Source of the DNA: Eunapius fragilis
Taxonomy: Eukaryota; Porifera; Demospongiae; Spongillida; Spongillidae
Assembly: GCA_963681505.1 (NCBI GenBank)
Contig: OY811978.1
Coordinates: 2,930,248-2,994,247 of the forward strand
Length of the DNA stretch: 64,000 nucleotides
Reading direction: 5' to 3'
Positions 19,062-63,735 of the stretch are shown piece by piece (position 1 is the first letter of the stretch; every line of letters starts with the position of its first letter). Under the pieces are notes generated by a model. It ran no database searches, was not told the DNA's origin, and worked only from the letters and a program-made list of their open reading frames with translations. Position numbers and translations under genes: made by a program.

Positions 19062-22000
19062 CTTACAGGCTCCTCCATTGCTGCCTTCTCTGCAACGGTT
19101 GGTTTTGGTTGGGCTGGTTCTTTTGGCTTAAATGACCCCAGCTCAGCGTAATGGATCTCCTGCTGCAAGAGATAAACAATATGTACATGGTCAGCACAAC
19201 TAAAAAGCCAGGTTGGCACACATATATATCTGATGAATGAGCCGCATGTCGCATGCACAACTATAGAATACATACGCCCATAAACTCCATACTTTAACAT
19301 AGAACATGAATGAATTTTAATTTTCAGGTGGCACCTTGTCTAGGGTAAGGGAATGTGTGATTGTGGGCGTTTAGCAAATCATCCATATCATCGCCATGAT
19401 GGAAAATTAAAAAATGCTAACTCTTAATTGAACTGCCTGGAAACCTACCCACATGCATGCATGCAAGTGCACAACACACACAACACACACACACAACACA
19501 TACACAACACACACACACACACAACACACACATACAACACACACCATACCTTCCCTGCTGGTTGTTGCATATCATCACCAAGGTCAACATCAACCTCCTC
19601 AACTTTCACACGACCACTGATATAAATATACAGAAACAGCCATGACAAGCTCACGTCCAGACAATATGAACTGACAATTCAATTATGCATAGTACCAACC
19701 CTTGAGCTGTGACACATAACCTTTTAATTTACAGGGATGGATAAGGCAATACACGTCCTAAATGACACAGTAGTCACAAAAGGTGAGAGGTTGGGCAACT
19801 GGTGACATGTACATCAGAAAATCAATGAAGCTGTTGACATGGTACAAGGGTTGGTGTATATTGAGGTGGCAACTAATTTTATGAAGTTGAATGCAAATGT
19901 ATATTCATTGATCTATATAAAGCATCACATAATCTACTGATACAAGACAGTTGGCAACCAGTTCTCATTAAAGAAAACACTATCCAGACATACCTATTGA
20001 TAAAATTGCAGTATTAAGTAAAGTATGTGTACAGACATAATCTGATCAGCACATCATTAATTACACAGGAACCAGCAATTTACAACGCAGCTATTGTTTG
20101 GTGTGAAAGCACATGTTCAAAACATCATTGCAACAACATGACAGCAGACAGGAAAATGAAAGGAACAACAATGTTTTCACACAGTTCACAACACCAAATG
20201 ACGTTAATTGTATAACATTATTTGCAATGGGAAACTCAAAACATACCATACCTTTTATTTTCCATTTGATATGTGCCACCTAGATATGGTTGTAAAATTT
20301 TTTAATTTGGACCACATTAAGATGACAAACAGATGACTGTTACTATCAATTACAAGTATCTCTCAGGACTTGCGTGCTACTGTATGACATAAACTCAGTG
20401 AGCAGCACAAATGACATATGTTCAAACATACATACATGTACTGGTTCACATTACATGTAAAAACATAACTGGTTTCACATTACTGCACAGACATGCATCC
20501 AGATACATGCAAGCGCACAGAAGTGTACGCAGGATTGTATCCGACAGTTACAGAATTGGTGGTACATGATCTGCCCTGATATTTATTTTAACAAGAATTC
20601 TTTACTTGTTAAAATATACTGCATAAGGTGAAACGCTGCTTCGAACCATGAAGTATATTACAATAAAATAACTATCTGGATGAAGTAAGACTTTGGTACA
20701 CAGAAAAAGCCAATTGCCGAGAAAATAATGTTCTATCATTGCCGAGATGTTTGGTGTTTTTTCCTGTTTCGTATCTATGGCGGAGCCTAACCTGAATGAA
20801 CTTGAGCCTAACCTGAATGAACTTGAGCCTAACCTGAATGAACTTGAGCCTAACCTGAATGAACTTGAGCCTAACCTGAATGAACTTGCACTACTTGTGT
20901 GCAGACTAAACGAAGGTGACTGATTCAGTCTGGAGACCAGCATGTCTGGATATGAGAACAAGTGTCCTCTAAAGCACATAGTAAGTAGCATGTGAAGGCT
21001 AATGTGTAAGAATACTTCTAGGCAATACACCCAATAGATAACGTCCTTCTAAATGGCCTTGGGTATTCTTTGACTGTGACTAGCAGATTACTAAGCTAAT
21101 ATGTACTTGCAGTTGGATTCACTTCATTATCATGCTAGTGTCAAGGAGCACGAAAAAATCCATGTGGATTTAAATACTGGGTCTGCACATAATCAGTATT
21201 TGGAGTCGAGATGTAAGGGAACTTAGTTCTTGTTTTGAGCAAATAGTTTATTTGACCAACGTGAGAATATCTACTGCTTCTGAAGTATATGGTTTTCAGT
21301 AACGGTATAATCATTTAGGGTTAAAACAAACACAGGTCCTTAGTTGCAAGGCCAGGAATAGCTTGAAACAGCGCCTTGAAAGTTTAACTCGGCAAAAATT
21401 GGAGTCCTTCTGACTAATCTTCCTAACAAAATAGTACACATGACCAGCCATCAGGTTAAGGACTAATGATCTGTATAACTGGTCAGTTGAGGGCTATACC
21501 TCTGGGAGGGTGGGGGTGCTGCCTATACCTCTGGGAAGGGTGGGGTGCTGCCTACACCTCTGGGAGAGTGGGGGTGCTGCCTACACCTCTGGGGAGGGTG
21601 GGGGTGCTGCCTACACCTCTGGGGACGGTGGGGTGCTGCCTACACCTCTGGGGAGGGTGGGGGTGCTGCCTACACCTCTGGGGAGGGTGGGGTGCTGCCT
21701 ACACCTCTGGGGAGGGTGGGGGTGCTGCCTACACCTCTGGGGAGGGTGGGGGTGCTGCCTACACCTCTGGGAGGGTGGGGGTGCTGCCTACACCTCTGGG
21801 GAGGGTGGGGGTGCTGCCTACACCTCTGGGGAGGGTGGGGGTGCTGCCTACACCTCTGGGGAGGGTGGGGGGTGCTGCCTACACATATTGAACACAAATT
21901 ATATTCCAGAAATCATACTTTAACCCCTTAACGTACCTCTATTCCTTACGACAAGGAAGATGATAATCACCACAATCAATACCAGGAGTACAAAAATGAT

Positions 22001-25755: not shown

Positions 25756-25841
25756 TTTTTGTTGGCTAACAGGAAATCTATTATAACATGGCAGATTGGC
25801 AGCACGTGATCAAAACAGGTTTTGCTCTTACCCGGTCGAGT

Positions 25842-28472: not shown

Positions 28473-28576
28473 TAGTCTCGTCCCCAGACCCAAATGTACG
28501 TAAGTGTTATCGCTTGCAGTATAACACTACGTACAGTGGGTCTGGACGATAAGTCAAGCGAAGTTGTTCTGTGCTT
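28473..28576. repeat. Left terminal inverted repeat with internal hairpin
   Basis: Begins TAGTCTCGTCCCCAGACCC. Inside it CCAGACCCA ... TGGGTCTGG and TACGTA(A)GTGTTAT ... ATAACAC-TACGTA are mutually complementary around a 10-base centre (CGCTTGCAGT), so a single TIR can fold into a near-complete hairpin of about 65 nt. Likely transposase recognition region. Confidence 0.9.
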
Positions 28577-28674
28577 CCAAACTTTGAAGCACCAATCAGA
28601 ATGCAGCTTCCGCGTGACGTCACAACGCCATTGTAATTATCCATTTTCATTGTAAATTGTACTCCGCCTTAACC

Positions 28675-30092
28675 ATGTCTAGTACGAGCGACTCCGATAC
28701 TGCTAATCTTGACAGCGTGATTGTACTCGCGTGTGGAAAATTGGGTTATTGTGACATTCGTCCGAGTCAACACACAGCCATAAAGTGCTTTCTACAAGGA
28801 AAGGATGTTTTCATTTGCTTACCGACCGGCAGCGGAAAGTCGTTGTGCTATGCTGCCTTGCCTTATGCATTTGATGGTCTTTATGGTCGTGAAAGCAGCA
28901 TCGTAATTGTTGTGTCTCCCTTGATAGCCTTGATGAAGGACCAGGTTAGTGGCATTACCACTTATATTAGGCCATATCAATGTACTTTGCAGGTGGCTGT
29001 ACTGAATTCTAAAGGTCTGGCTGCTACCTATGTTAGCAGCGAAAACAGGGAAGATCTTCAGCTTGAAAAAATCCTTCGAGGAGAATATAAAATTCTCTTC
29101 ATCAGTCCGGAGATGCTGATGCTAAACCTGGCAATGAGAGAAATGCTCAGAACGACAGTATACAAGGACAACCTTGTTGCCTTTGTAATAGATGAAGTTC
29201 ACTGTGTCACTAAATGGTTAGTCATTAATGTCATGCAATACAATGGTTTAGAATATGTATAACATTCCTTAGGGGTGAGTACTTCAGGCAAGAGTTCAAA
29301 CATCTGGGAGAAGTACGGAGCATTATTCCAGGTCATGTCAAATGTATGGTCATGACAGCTACTGCCACAGTAGCCACAAGAAATAAAGTAATCGCTATTG
29401 TGGGGTTGAATGATCCTGTTCTAGTCTCTGCTTCACCTGACAAAGCCAATATTTTTTACACTGTCAGAGAAAACACAAGCTTGAGTGTGGAAGTTGCATT
29501 TACACCCATAGTGGCTAAACTACGCACTCTTAGACGCAAAATGCCAAGAGTTATGGTATTTTGCAGGCGATATGAGGACTGTGCATGCATTTATGACTTT
29601 TTTGTAAGTTCACTAAAGGAGGAATTTACTGAGCCTATTGCTGCTCCCAACTTAGCAAGGTTTAGACTAGTGGATATGTACACAGGGGTTACTAGGAAGA
29701 CTGTCCAAGACGCTATCATAACTGCATTTTGTACTGGTGATAGTCCTTTAAGAATTGTGATATGCACAGTAGCTTTTGGTATGGGTTTGGACTGTGTAAA
29801 TGTGAGTCAAATTATTCACTGGGGACCAGCTTCTGATGTGGATTCATACATGCAAGAGTGTGGTCGTGCAGGCCGTAATGGTGAACCAGTTACTGCCTTG
29901 CTCTACTGGAAAAAGAAAGACTTTAAGTCAAACACAATCTCCAAAGAGATGAAAGTCTATTGTTCAAATCAAGGGACATGCAGAAGAACAATATTGGCAT
30001 CATACTTTGATTGCACCAAACTTAATGTTAATGGTTGTAACTGCTGTGATGTGTGTGCTGTTAATTGTACTTGCAATAGCTGTAACGTGTAG
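28675..30092 (+). CDS. Transposon-borne RecQ-family helicase
   Basis: Three exons: 28675-28944, 28993-29216, 29273-30092, giving 437 aa. Introns are 48 and 56 nt; the first lacks a stop and is a multiple of three, so unspliced reading also stays open, but splicing restores the family spacing MKDQ-VAVLNSKG. ATG 28675 is the first in frame. SF2 motifs in order: QHTAIKCFLQGKD (motif 0), PTGSGKS (50-56), DEVH (157-160), TATAT (193-197), VFCRR (259-263), FGMGLD (333-338), GRAGRNG (362-368). A Cys cluster (CRRTILASYFDC, CNCCDVC, 401-425) matches the RecQ zinc-binding subdomain. It is shorter than cellular RecQ proteins and has no winged-helix or HRDC part. Predicted 3'-5' DNA unwinding. It probably works with the DUF6589 protein during excision, replication or repair of the element; that is inference. 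Confidence 0.9.
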
Positions 30093-30148
30093 ATTGTTCC
30101 CATTTTATTACCAGTTGAATGAATATAAATACATACACTTGAACATTT

Positions 30149-33100
30149 CTAATGAACCAATGGTGATTGCTTAAGGATGATCAAAATGTTCTTATTTATC
30201 CAGGTAGTCAATTTTTTTTTGTTTATAGAATACAGCATACCATTACACAGTTGCTTCGGAAATGTTTTGTGCTTTCTGCCAGGCTTCTGGCTGAAGACAC
30301 CACTTTGCACAAGTTCACAGACTATTTTTGACAAGTCACAGGCCTCTGAGTGACGGGTATGATCTCCAGATATGTGAATCCCTGTGATCTCATCAAAGTA
30401 GTGCAAGGTTTCACTTAGCACACCTACTACTTTTCCTGCTCTTTTAACAGCCTGGGGTGTTTTATTTGCACCAAGATGCCTAACAGAGTCCTTGATGTGC
30501 CGATTTAAATGCTCCATATGCAAATCAGCTGAGATATTATGGCCTGCCTTTCCCCTAGCATTGATGAAACGACCCCACAACATCTCTTCTGCATAACGAG
30601 GGGGCAGTATGTAGTAATACTGCATCAAGGTATTAAATGCCTCAAGGCAGTAATTGGTATGTCCAGTGGCACGAAAAAATAGCCAGAAGTATTTCCAACA
30701 TCTTAGCACTCTTTCGCCATCTCCTTCACGGATAGCATCTTTGAATTCCAGGTACAGTAGCCCTAGAGACAGTGTTTCTTTGGCATACTCCAACACATGG
30801 TCTGGATTTTGGCTTGAGGGAGTATGTCCTGCTTGAAAAGTGATGGTGACTAGTTTAGCACAGATAGATTTTGCTACTGAATGCAGAGTAGATGATGAAT
30901 TACCACTCAGAATGTTTTCTGATAAATTAGCTACATCTTCAGCCCCAACTAGGCTGATTGCAGCTGCAACTATGTGTGCCTTTGTAACAAGCTCAAGAAA
31001 GTCCTCACAAGAGTTCATGTCTTTGCTTACATCTGATACCACACTTCTCCTATTGATAAGGTTGCGTAGCTGATACATGGTACCACCCTCCAGCCCTGAG
31101 CTTGTCTTGTATAGTCTTGTCCACACCACCTGATGACAAAGAGATGTCAGTATAAATTTTCCCACCTCTTGTAGTTCCTATCACAGACGTATTAGCTATC
31201 TCTAAGCTCAACGGCTGTCCTAGGGTAACCACCACACAGAACTTCAATAGCATGAATAATATACATGTACCTTCATGAATGTCATCTTTGTATGCCAATC
31301 CTCTATGACAGGGATTAGACCTTCCAGACGTTCTTTTCCACTTTCAGAGTTTGATAGCACCTTCTGGCTACCTCTAATTCTGGCTGTTGTGAGCTGATCC
31401 CCTCCAATTAGGATGTGATGAAAGTGATCGATATTAACATCAACAGTTTCTAATCTTCCACTTTGGCCACAGACATCAAATGTTTGAGTACTTCTGATCT
31501 TAGGGACATACTTGTGCAATACATCCATAATGTCCACCATGTCGTCAATAACATTTTCATTTTTCAGCAGTACTCCCAATGGCACCTACATGTTATATTT
31601 CATAGTAACAGTACATGCACATGTATGTTTCTAGCACGCACATACCACTTGTGACTTTTGTACCATATTTGCTGTATACTTATGCTGGATGTGGGGCATA
31701 ACTGCATATTTCAAATGGCTGAGCCCATGAATATTCTGAGTTAAAATTCTAGCCACCAAAATCTCCATGTTGAATGATAGAGCAGCATCATCATCTGTGG
31801 ATGGGTAGAACAGATTGCAATCAATACTTTTTGGATCAATGAAAGTGGAATTGTTGCTAAGACCACTAAAGTTTATTCTGTCCTTCACGGCATAAACATG
31901 GAAATAGTGAAGTGACTGAACTTGGTGGTTGAATCGCATATCACGTGGTTTAACCGTTTTGTCTATATTGTCTCCAACAAGTTTAAAGCCATGCCATTCT
32001 GACTCAGTCACACAATCTCCATCATCAGTGGTGCTTTCTGACTGGGATGCCTCCTGCCTTGGTTCTATGTTATACATTTAAAAATTATAACTCCAGTCAC
32101 ACAGAGTATTCCATACATAGTACGCACCTTGAAGTAGCACATCTTGATTACCACTATCTGTAATGAAGTAGTATGCATTGTTAATGCAACTAAGAAAAAT
32201 ACACAAACCTGGAGCTATGTCCAATACATCTGAAAGGCTAGAATCACAATCACTTAAGAGGGGTATGTCAGACTGATGACATGAGGACTGGCTCACACAT
32301 TTCTCATCATCGGATGCACCATTAAATGAGCTGTTTGGAGTGGACATGAATTTTGGTGGTGAATTGTCATCAAATATTGATAGCGCTAGAACACTGGAGG
32401 ATGAACTGGAAGTACCAGTAGGCATATGTGCCAAACATGATGATGAAATAACACCCTAAAATATAAAGGATAACCTTATTATGCTCCAAATTATTTGCAT
32501 GACCTGCCTGATTCATTGGCATGAAGTGTTTAAGTTCCTCAACCCATTCAAGGACAGTGCTGTCATGATTGGCACCAAGAGTGTCTAGTAGTTTCTGTGT
32601 ACTATCTGTAGACAGGCATATGCCCATTTTCTGCAATCTGGTGTATACCTGTAATGATAACGTATTTATGATAGTTTAAAATGTAGTCCTATGTAGCAAA
32701 GAACTGAAAGTACACATCACAGGCATGAATGTACATGTACCTGTTTTGCAGCATGCCCTGAGTAAAGGAATAAAGAAATTAATATGTGGATAAGAGTTTG
32801 GCGATGATGAGATTTCACTAAAACTGCCACACATGTTAGTAGAATAGAGTGACGCTTAGGGCTGCATCGAGCAACACAAGTGTCAAGTAAACCCATCAGT
32901 GTTGGAGCTAGTTGTGTAAGTTGAATGTAAAGACCTTCCCAGGTATATGACGTTAATACTTTCAGGCTAACATCTTCAAATTTCAAAGTAGTGTCTGAAA
33001 GAATCCTTTTCATATCTTCCCGCACAAGTGTACTAACTCTTGCTAACAGCTCCTTCCTCGTCATTTTATTTACAAATGCATGCTTAGCGAATGCTCTTAC

Positions 33101-33605
33101 TGAATTACGGGCTAACGATTTTCCAATTTCTTCCCTCCTGGGAGACAAAACATACCTTTTCTCATAACCGTCATGTGTGACGATCACCTGTTGTAAAATT
33201 GAAAGCTACATAAAGAGCACTGTTGATACCGGCACAGTACTCACTACTGACCTTTACGGATGGTCGTTCAGCAACTGGTGCCCTTCGTTTTGTAACGCAA
33301 TGCCGTTGTTCTGCAGTTTCTATACTAGCAGCTGCTTGGCTGCAATGAGCTGTCAAATTCGCAGTAAGCTTTGCCATTAATTCGTCTCTCAGCTTCTGTA
33401 GCTCGCTCTTTAGAAAAGCGTACTTTCCGACATCCCTGTAGCAGGTCAAGCATATGTATCCGGAGCTGTAATCAACGTTCATGTTCGCTACTTCACAAGA
33501 TAAACTCCTTAGCGTCTCACAACACAGTGCCAGTGTTGGACTTTCTAGGCGTCTTCTTTTTTTGCAGCTTAAAACAGGCAAACCACATACCTTGCAGCGA
33601 TTCAT
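30149..33605 (-). CDS. DUF6589-type protein, candidate transposase
   Basis: Eight exons, all in phase: 33605-33252, 33187-32741, 32648-32475, 32455-32209, 32157-32128, 32064-31646, 31585-31271, 31129-30149; 988 aa. The N-terminus has Cys pairs (CKVCG, CLTCY) suggesting a zinc finger, followed by a charged helix. The C-terminal half carries blocks I recall from DUF6589 proteins of sponges, cnidarians and fungi: LIGGDQLTTAR (Asp620), EDWHTKM (Asp653, His655), GTMYQLRNLINR, and NARGKAGHNISADLHMEHLN (Asp864, Glu868). These invariant acidic residues make an RNase H-like DDE/D nuclease plausible, but this is unproven. A Ser-rich acidic linker lies near 330-415. Its position as the only other gene between perfect TIRs supports a transposase role. 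The start ATG follows the right TIR by 64 bases. Confidence 0.85.
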
Positions 33606-33669
33606 TTTAATTTGCGAATGTGACGTAGGCAATTACGTATGACGTCACAATTATTACATAACATTTTAA

Positions 33670-33773
33670 AAGCACGGAACAACTTCGCTTGACTTATCGT
33701 CCAGACCCACTGTACGTAGTGTTATACTGCAAGCGATAACACTTACGTACATTTGGGTCTGGGGACGAGACTA
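33670..33773. repeat. Right terminal inverted repeat
   Basis: Inverse of 28473-28576 with one mismatch (C/T seven bases from the inner end). Ends GGGTCTGGGGACGAGACTA and contains the same internal hairpin. Confidence 0.9.
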
Positions 33774-62125: not shown

Positions 62126-62740
62126 TGCTAAGTTATTTGTGGCACCAAACCACCAAACCAAATGACTAGAAGAAAAAAGTTTGGCCACTACATTCATGCA
62201 TTAACACCCACTCACCACTGCTGTACCGAATCATTTGTCTAAGATCCCTAAACACGGAGATTCAGGTGAGAATGTTCAGTCAAGTCAAAACAAATCAGCA
62301 ATTCAACATGAAATCAAAACACAGAGAACATTATCACCAATGCCATCAAACGCCTGCATTATGAGCAACATTCTAAACATGAGGACAACGGTAGCAGTGC
62401 AAAAGTTGTGAGGTAGAAAAGTTTGGAAAAGTTACAGAAAAATCTCAAAACCACCACTTTACAAGGGAGATTATGAAATCTGCATCGTACCAAGCACACA
62501 TCGAGAGGATTAGTGATTACCTTATTGTGGACCTGGTGTGTGGTGGAAGACCACTGATGACGGAGTTGAGTTCTTTGATGGAGACTCAGAAGAGGACTAC
62601 AAGGCTGTAGGTCCTTCCTTGCATCACTTCCATTCAGTTTCACTGGAGGACATTGATGCGCTTTTATTAGAACAGTGGGAACAGTGCATTTGCACAGAAC
62701 ATTGAACTTCTAGCACTAATAATGTACAGGACTGGTGCCG
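62126..62740. other. No gene recognised
   Basis: Short open frames on both strands without family similarity. Confidence 0.45.
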
Positions 62741-63245
62741 GTGTTGTACTGGGCTGATGTATTGAATGTACTGGACTGGTGTGATGTATGTACTGGACTG
62801 GTGTGATGTATGTACTGGACTGTGTGATGTATGTACTGGACTGGTGTGATGTATGTACTGGACTGGTGTGATGTATGTACTGGACTGGTGTGATGTATGT
62901 ACTGGACTGGTGTGATGTATGTACTGGACTGGTGTGATGTATGTACTGGACTGGTGTGATGTATGTACTGGACTGGTGTGATGTATGTACTGGACTGGTG
63001 TGATGTATGTACTGGACTGGTGTGATGTATGTACTGGACTGGTGTGATGTATGTACTGGACTGGTGTGATGTATGTACTGGACTGGTGTGATGTATGTAC
63101 TGGACTGGTGTGATGTATGTACTGGACTGTGTGATGTATGTACTGGACTGGTGTGATGTATGTACTGGACTGGTGTGATGTATGTACTGGACTGGTGTGA
63201 TGTATGTACTGGACTGGTGTGATGTATGTACTGGACCGGTGTGTG
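62741..63245. repeat. About 22-bp minisatellite, more than 20 units
   Basis: Unit TGGTGTGATGTATGTACTGGAC, very homogeneous, with two units lacking one GG step. Two long minus-strand frames (QSSTYITPVQYIHHTSPVHT type) result from the unit length and are not genes. Confidence 0.95.
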
Positions 63246-63735
63246 TAGTATGTACTGGACCACCTCACATAAACTCCATGGACTTAAATAGCAGACTTTG
63301 CATTTGGTGATATCAAACATCTCTGTGTGTGTGTGTTTGTGTTTGTATTTACATGTAAATGGTCTCACTGGATGGAGCCTTGATAATGGCAGTGAAATTA
63401 TTTCTACCCTATCTCAAAAGATTTGGCCACTGGATATGCTGAGCTATTCACACACATGACTTCATATTTACCCATGGCTTCAGAACTTCAAATGTAAAAA
63501 TCTGAGGATGGTGCACAGGTGTGTAGTACTTCCCCACCAACACCCTCCCTCTTTAATAAATGTGCAGGGGCAATGCCACACCCCCTTCCCTCCTCCATCA
63601 TACAACATACCAGTCCACTACATACATCACAGCAATCCAATACACCAGTCCTGTTCATACAACATGTGGTGGAAGTTGCAAAATACATAATGCCTCTGTA
63701 CTGTATATAGGACTCGGGAACTAGTGAGACACACC

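Follow-up and report, generated by a model that had tools for sequence, protein, structure and literature searches.

RecQ-type helicases have been reported in more than one lineage of DNA transposons with terminal inverted repeats (TIRs). According to PMC3627910, "RecQ Helicase in Academ" is a finding of Kapitonov et al., and Academ is placed among the DDD/E transposases (PMC9587614). For AcademH, which is also described in PMC10799480, passages of PMC10045372 give target site duplications (TSDs) of 9 or 10 bp, versus 3 or 4 bp in AcademX, relate this to helicase and nuclease, and cite a title that puts AcademH in animals and fungi. Curated Academ elements of bivalves have a mean length of 5,565 bp (PMC10294476). 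In KolobokH, known only from fungi according to a passage of PMC9587614, RecQ is located downstream of the transposase domain. Here we describe positions 28473-33773 of a 64,000-nucleotide stretch of contig OY811978.1 (hereafter the window), which constitute an intact transposon of 5,301 bp with a RecQ gene and a gene of the DUF6589 family. Very likely it is an AcademH-like autonomous DNA transposon with several related families beside it in the genome, AcademH being compared by its description only. A first-pass annotation of the window knew of no described TIR element with RecQ, but such elements are in the literature: Academ with RecQ (PMC3627910), AcademH with a helicase (PMC10045372) and KolobokH with RecQ (PMC9587614). 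Since RecQ-bearing Academ and AcademH are already published, the element is probably a new family of a known lineage.

Structure, copies and target sites of the element

The element ends in a pair of 104-bp TIRs with a single mismatch, the similarity of the arms continuing to 124 bp at 92%, and both its flanks carry the identical 9-bp TSD CCCCACGAA. RecQ (+ strand, 3 exons) converges on DUF6589 (- strand, 8 exons), their stop codons lying tail to tail 56 bp apart (Table 1). Re-reading of the element has confirmed the TIRs, the TSD and the two complete convergent multi-exon genes of the first-pass annotation. Splice sites of both genes were read from the DNA, and the gene models are predicted ones. 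The annotation as an intact transposon is supported by the ends, the TSDs, the open genes and by the further copies and unbroken sites described below.

Table 1. Features of the element, with positions in the window
Feature	Position	Strand	Basis or remark
Left TSD CCCCACGAA	28464..28472	.	joined flanks with one copy match unbroken sites elsewhere
Left TIR, 104 bp	28473..28576	+	inverted similarity reaches 28596
Hairpin in left TIR, arms CCAGACCCA ... TGGGTCTGG	28478..28549	+	z -7.44; 0/200 shuffles fold as well
RecQ exon 1	28675..28944	+	reading of DNA and Pfam
RecQ exon 2	28993..29216	+	reading of DNA
RecQ exon 3 with stop	29273..30092	+	closest solved structure by sequence 1oyw, E 1.1e-52
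DUF6589 exon 8 with stop; candidate catalytic E873 in DLHMEH	30149..31177	-	reading of DNA, Pfam, conservation
DUF6589 exon 7; D609 in GGDQLT, EDWH 641-644	31271..31585	-	reading of DNA and relatives
DUF6589 exon 6; D438 in GDNIDK	31646..32064	-	reading of DNA and relatives
DUF6589 exon 5	32128..32157	-	reading of DNA
DUF6589 exon 4	32209..32455	-	reading of DNA
DUF6589 exon 3, then GC-AG intron	32508..32648	-	reading of DNA
DUF6589 exon 2	32741..33187	-	reading of DNA
DUF6589 exon 1; N-terminal CxxC ... CxxC, candidate zinc- or DNA-binding part	33252..33605	-	zf-AD in some cnidarian relatives
Right TIR, 104 bp	33670..33773	-	inverted repeat of left TIR
Hairpin in right TIR	33697..33768	-	z -8.23; 0/200 shuffles fold as well
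Right TSD CCCCACGAA	33774..33782	.	matches left TSD

The genome examined comprises 219 Mb in 24 contigs. The best 40 of 85 candidates were scored in the TIR search and the best 40 of 217 in the search with joined flanks, so the counts are lower bounds. At least 42 TIR matches were found, the window's own two included. Besides the window element, there are at least four long copies (5.1-5.3 kb), and short ones range in size from roughly 90 to 1,100 bp. The nearest facing terminus pairs in the fetched DNA (n=25) have an exact 9-bp duplication in 14 cases, one mismatch in five and two or more in six. Two of the 14 exact duplications are located in poly-C, which makes them weaker proof, and four of the six poorly matching pairs join a terminus with the wrong partner. 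The search for more copies with the same TIRs and 9-bp duplications, proposed in the first-pass annotation, has thus found them. When the window flanks are joined through one TSD copy (170 bp), at least three other sites match them unbroken at full length (96-97%), and at least seven further sites match 143-155 bases over the junction (85-92%). Therefore, the element lies in a dispersed repeat whose empty form persists.

L010, one of the long copies, is 99.75% identical to the window element across 5,301 bp without gaps, has a different TSD (AGGCAGCAC) and keeps both genes open. Movement of the element is recent. On the window exon map, DUF6589 is broken and rearranged in L009, where RecQ is open, and both genes are broken in L011 and L012. 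Two near-identical intact copies and many short ones make a resource of this transposon with its own RecQ helicase, which lets one ask why some DDE transposons need a helicase.

The short copies include L022, in which remnants of RecQ persist, apparently after an internal deletion. Among the loci fetched, L013 and L026 showed one end each and L061 the left end alone, and L021 matched at both ends, the left one lacking its first six bases, and gave no TSD. In copies too short for either gene, the ends and TSDs are unchanged, consistent with their movement in trans.

The insertions of L006, L008, L011, L014 and L020 are in C or G runs, so that GC-rich homopolymer tracts may be preferred as targets. 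The left terminus of L060 (754-880) is doubled, at 754 and 818, with a 9-bp duplication at the outer one only. The long copy L012 directly adjoins another terminus of the same kind (188-245), as though a related short element, or the DNA beside it, had served as its target.

RecQ as a partner of DUF6589

RecQ codes for a 437 aa protein and has GT-AG introns. In Pfam the product matches DEAD (E 1.7e-25) and Helicase_C (4.3e-12), while PF16124, the RecQ zinc domain, is matched weakly, its 23.7 bits (E 7.9e-5) falling short of the 25 bits required, and no RQC or HRDC domain is listed at E<=1. A sequence search of PDB puts the ATP-dependent DNA helicase 1oyw first, followed by RecQ, RecQ5, WRN, RecQ1 and BLM chains. 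The protein can be assigned to the RecQ family by its superfamily 2 (SF2) helicase core, DEVH/DEAH box, QxxGRxGR motif and RecQ helicases as nearest relatives. DE[AV]H is present in 27 of the 28 loci covering that box. The best named relative comes from the freshwater sponge Ephydatia muelleri (61% identity over 98%). A 249-aa protein, P0042, is 98% identical to part of the element RecQ, so this species or a sister species has probably been sequenced in another project as well.

The association of the two genes was evaluated over the whole genome, scoring the best 102 of 215 candidates for PF20231 (the Pfam model of DUF6589) and the best 96 of 1039 for the RecQ protein, so that these counts are lower bounds as well. 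At least 116 PF20231 exon matches were merged by strand within 3 kb into 90 loci, the inverted L009 being counted twice, and the RecQ search gave at least 122 matches. Among the matches listed, RecQ lies downstream on the opposite strand within 5 kb in 65 of the 90 DUF6589 loci; in one more it is on the same strand, this being the inverted piece of L009. About 0.4% would be expected by chance. The median gap over these 66 loci is about 394 bp. The 24 loci that have no RecQ among the matches listed weigh against a strict pairing. When the best-scoring 30 PF20231 matches were taken with their DNA, a RecQ relative was found in all 30, including L051, one of those 24; the window family accounts for three of the 30, the window copy among them.

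Distances between RecQ proteins follow those between DUF6589 proteins (r 0.94 over 17 non-redundant loci, reached in 0 of 5000 permutations); the 17 were obtained from the 30 by dropping any locus with a DUF6589 distance <=0.05 to one already kept. Such co-diversification indicates that RecQ is not a recent cargo, and together with the 30/30 co-occurrence and the proximity at 66 of the 90 loci it rules out RecQ as a one-off passenger. The E. muelleri genes for DUF6589 (EMCRGX_G022803) and RecQ (EMCRGX_G022804) are numbered consecutively and have equally long contigs, so the pairing probably extends beyond the present genome. Whether the two genes are neighbours in other genomes was a check advised in the first-pass annotation, and in E. 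muelleri they probably are. Its view of RecQ as a dedicated partner is supported by the 30/30 loci, the 66/90 proximity and the correlation, and from these sequence comparisons RecQ appears to be a long-term partner of DUF6589.

Predicted fold of the DUF6589 protein

DUF6589 codes for a 993 aa protein and has seven introns, six starting with GT and one with GC, all ending with AG. The LIGGDQLT, EDWH and DLHMEHLN blocks noted in the first-pass annotation hold, and Pfam assigns the product to DUF6589 (PF20231, E 2.5e-57). Best named relatives are from E. muelleri (55-56% across the whole 511-residue query region), others from Amphimedon, Halichondria, corals and one fish, and a profile search adds hydrozoans. 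With E. muelleri as the source of the best named relatives of both proteins, the host is probably a demosponge. The N-terminal CxxC ... CxxC part has no Pfam match at E<=1 in the window protein; some cnidarian relatives carry zf-AD.

The predicted fold of the domain model is closest to P element and Hermes according to VIA-align 2. The model has an RNase-H-like core interrupted by a helical insertion and places the first Asp in strand 1 (GDNxDK, D438); D609 of GGDQLT is the second Asp, and E873 of DLHMEH is the Glu. EDWH follows strand 5, the position of the [C/D]xxH motif in P and hAT transposases (PMC8230255 for the position in the P family, PMC9587614 for the superfamilies, as given in passages of these papers). 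The predicted likeness to P element and Hermes includes the RNase-H core, one Asp in strand 1 and another where strand 4 ends, a His motif after strand 5, a long helical insertion and Glu in a later helix.

Two results weigh against this assignment. Foldseek found nothing better than E 0.25 in PDB for either model, the top rows being unrelated membrane or helical proteins, which leaves VIA-align 2 as the basis of the fold claim; and the full-length model has a mean predicted local distance difference test (pLDDT) score of 72.5, with residues 299-424 disordered. RAG1 and Transib occur in the VIA-align 2 list of the full-length model and are absent from that of the domain model. Judging by the predicted fold and the conserved acidic residues, DUF6589 is likely a DDE-type transposase whose RNase-H fold, like that of P element and Hermes, is interrupted by helices. 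This was also the proposal of the first-pass annotation, whose structural check came out in favour of an RNase-H-like fold, while its catalytic triad has been corrected to D438/D609/E873: it apparently took the Asp of EDWH (its numbering being a few residues off), which the model excludes from the triad. D438 is upstream of the point where the Pfam model begins matching, and PF20231 appears to start after the first catalytic Asp. A DDE catalytic core predicted for DUF6589, a Pfam family of unknown function found in sponges, corals, other cnidarians and a fish, gives this family a testable function.

The fold could also be taken to mean that the element is P-, hAT- or Mutator-like and picked up RecQ as cargo. 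The P superfamily is known for the THAP domain and P-element-type Pfam domains, and both P and hAT elements duplicate 8 bp of the target. The model does have the P-type catalytic fold, and the DUF6589 domain is the only one found by Pfam in the 993-aa protein at E<=1: THAP, P-element-type, hAT and Mutator-like element (MULE) domains were not found, so membership in any of these groups by Pfam was rejected. The 9-bp TSD and the helicase partner also set the element apart from P and hAT. Maize Mu gives 9-bp duplications too (PMC2774946). As RecQ has also diversified together with DUF6589 across many families, a P-, hAT- or Mutator-like origin is largely refuted and may be considered very improbable.

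Classification, termini and TIR hairpins

KolobokH is the other RecQ-bearing lineage to which the element might belong. Kolobok elements duplicate TTAA, whereas the duplications here are of 9 bp. RecQ is here a separate convergent gene, which is not the KolobokH arrangement. A DDD/E transposase paired with RecQ is common to both, and in Kolobok-1_CCri RecQ is even on the complementary strand; KolobokH differs in its transposase superfamily and in its fungal host, as opposed to a probable animal host here (passages of PMC9587614). Membership in KolobokH is therefore extremely unlikely.

As far as the passages of the cited papers go, the agreement with AcademH covers a transposase with a helicase (RecQ according to PMC3627910), a DDD/E transposase (here by predicted fold and conserved acids), an animal host (probable here, the nearest named proteins being from the sponge E. 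muelleri), and a TSD of 9-10 bp, 9-bp duplications being found here in three families. The size is similar to the mean for bivalve Academ, 5,301 versus 5,565 bp (PMC10294476). The same passages differ from our locus in giving no DUF6589 identity, TIR hairpins or co-divergence of RecQ and transposase; DUF6589 is not mentioned in the parts of the literature searched, nor named in the AcademH passages. As the likeness to AcademH rests on descriptions and not on sequence, the element could represent a separate DUF6589 + RecQ superfamily, in which the helicase and the TSD length came to resemble those of AcademH by convergence. We consider this unlikely, as helicase, 9-bp TSD, animal host, "RecQ Helicase in Academ" and element size all agree with AcademH. 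Relative to the literature found, new points of the AcademH-kind element are DUF6589 as a predicted P/hAT-like DDE core, the co-divergence and the TIR hairpins, some of which the original AcademH description may hold. AcademH reportedly goes back to Kojima (2020, Mob DNA 11:15).

In two further families, with RecQ 32-46% identical to that of the window, the ends are of the same kind and the duplications again measure 9 bp (L059 CCTTGCGCC, L060 TCCACGAAC, L062 GCTTCATAC). At least four more DUF6589 loci on contig C1, one of them belonging to the 24 loci that have no RecQ among the matches listed, are located between facing termini 4.6-5.4 kb apart. The terminal 18-mer TAGYCTCGTNCCCAGRCC has 1,583 + 1,546 occurrences in the genome, 498 of them with G at the R position, and its reversed control has none. 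In the part of these 3,129 exact termini that was listed, a number face each other at a distance of about 50-150 bp, which suggests that tiny non-autonomous elements are numerous.

We expect the DUF6589 protein to bind the TAGYCTCGTNCCCAGRCC ends, to cut at the TAG ends with D438/D609/E873 and to join them to target DNA at a stagger of 9 bp, a distance that follows from the TSDs. RecQ would be a 3'-5' helicase dedicated to transposition, whose most likely task is to unwind donor ends or folded TIRs or else to clear the gapped intermediate. Non-autonomous copies sharing these ends would be mobilised in trans.

A TIR hairpin was found in all three families read, its arms beginning at base 12. 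The arms are CCAGACC/GGTCTGG in the window and L059; in L062 both sides are changed, to CCAGGCC/GGCCTGG. The 7-nt arm has an exact partner in 6 of 12 terminus types of the fetched DNA (shuffle mean 0.03, maximum 1) and in 28 of 43 terminal 90-mers, which are not independent. Several points weigh against the hairpin and its covariation: folding z-scores of -7.4 and -8.2 in the window become modest in L059 (-3.2, -2.2) and L062 (-2.6, -2.5), four of the six terminus types are length variants of the window family, and the other six have no exact arm partner within 80 nt. Given the small sample and the half of terminus types that have no exact partner, covariation is a lead only. We tentatively speculate, as a rather doubtful possibility, that the hairpin is opened or resolved by the element's own RecQ, that a P/hAT-like DUF6589 acts on the remodelled ends, and that the two form an obligate pair co-evolved across animal DUF6589 families.

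Two lone diverged termini at 25841 (+) and 37987 (-) of the window face each other about 12.1 kb apart and enclose the element. The sequences following them are similar (CTATTT.TATA..AAAGTT), no matching 9-bp flanks were seen by eye, and tblastn with both element proteins gave no match in the window outside the element. These termini are perhaps remnants of an older related element that was the target of the present insertion. The window also includes two minisatellites, at 21494-21884 (30-bp unit x 13.2, 94% matches) and at 62722-63260 (22-bp unit x 24.5, 95% matches).

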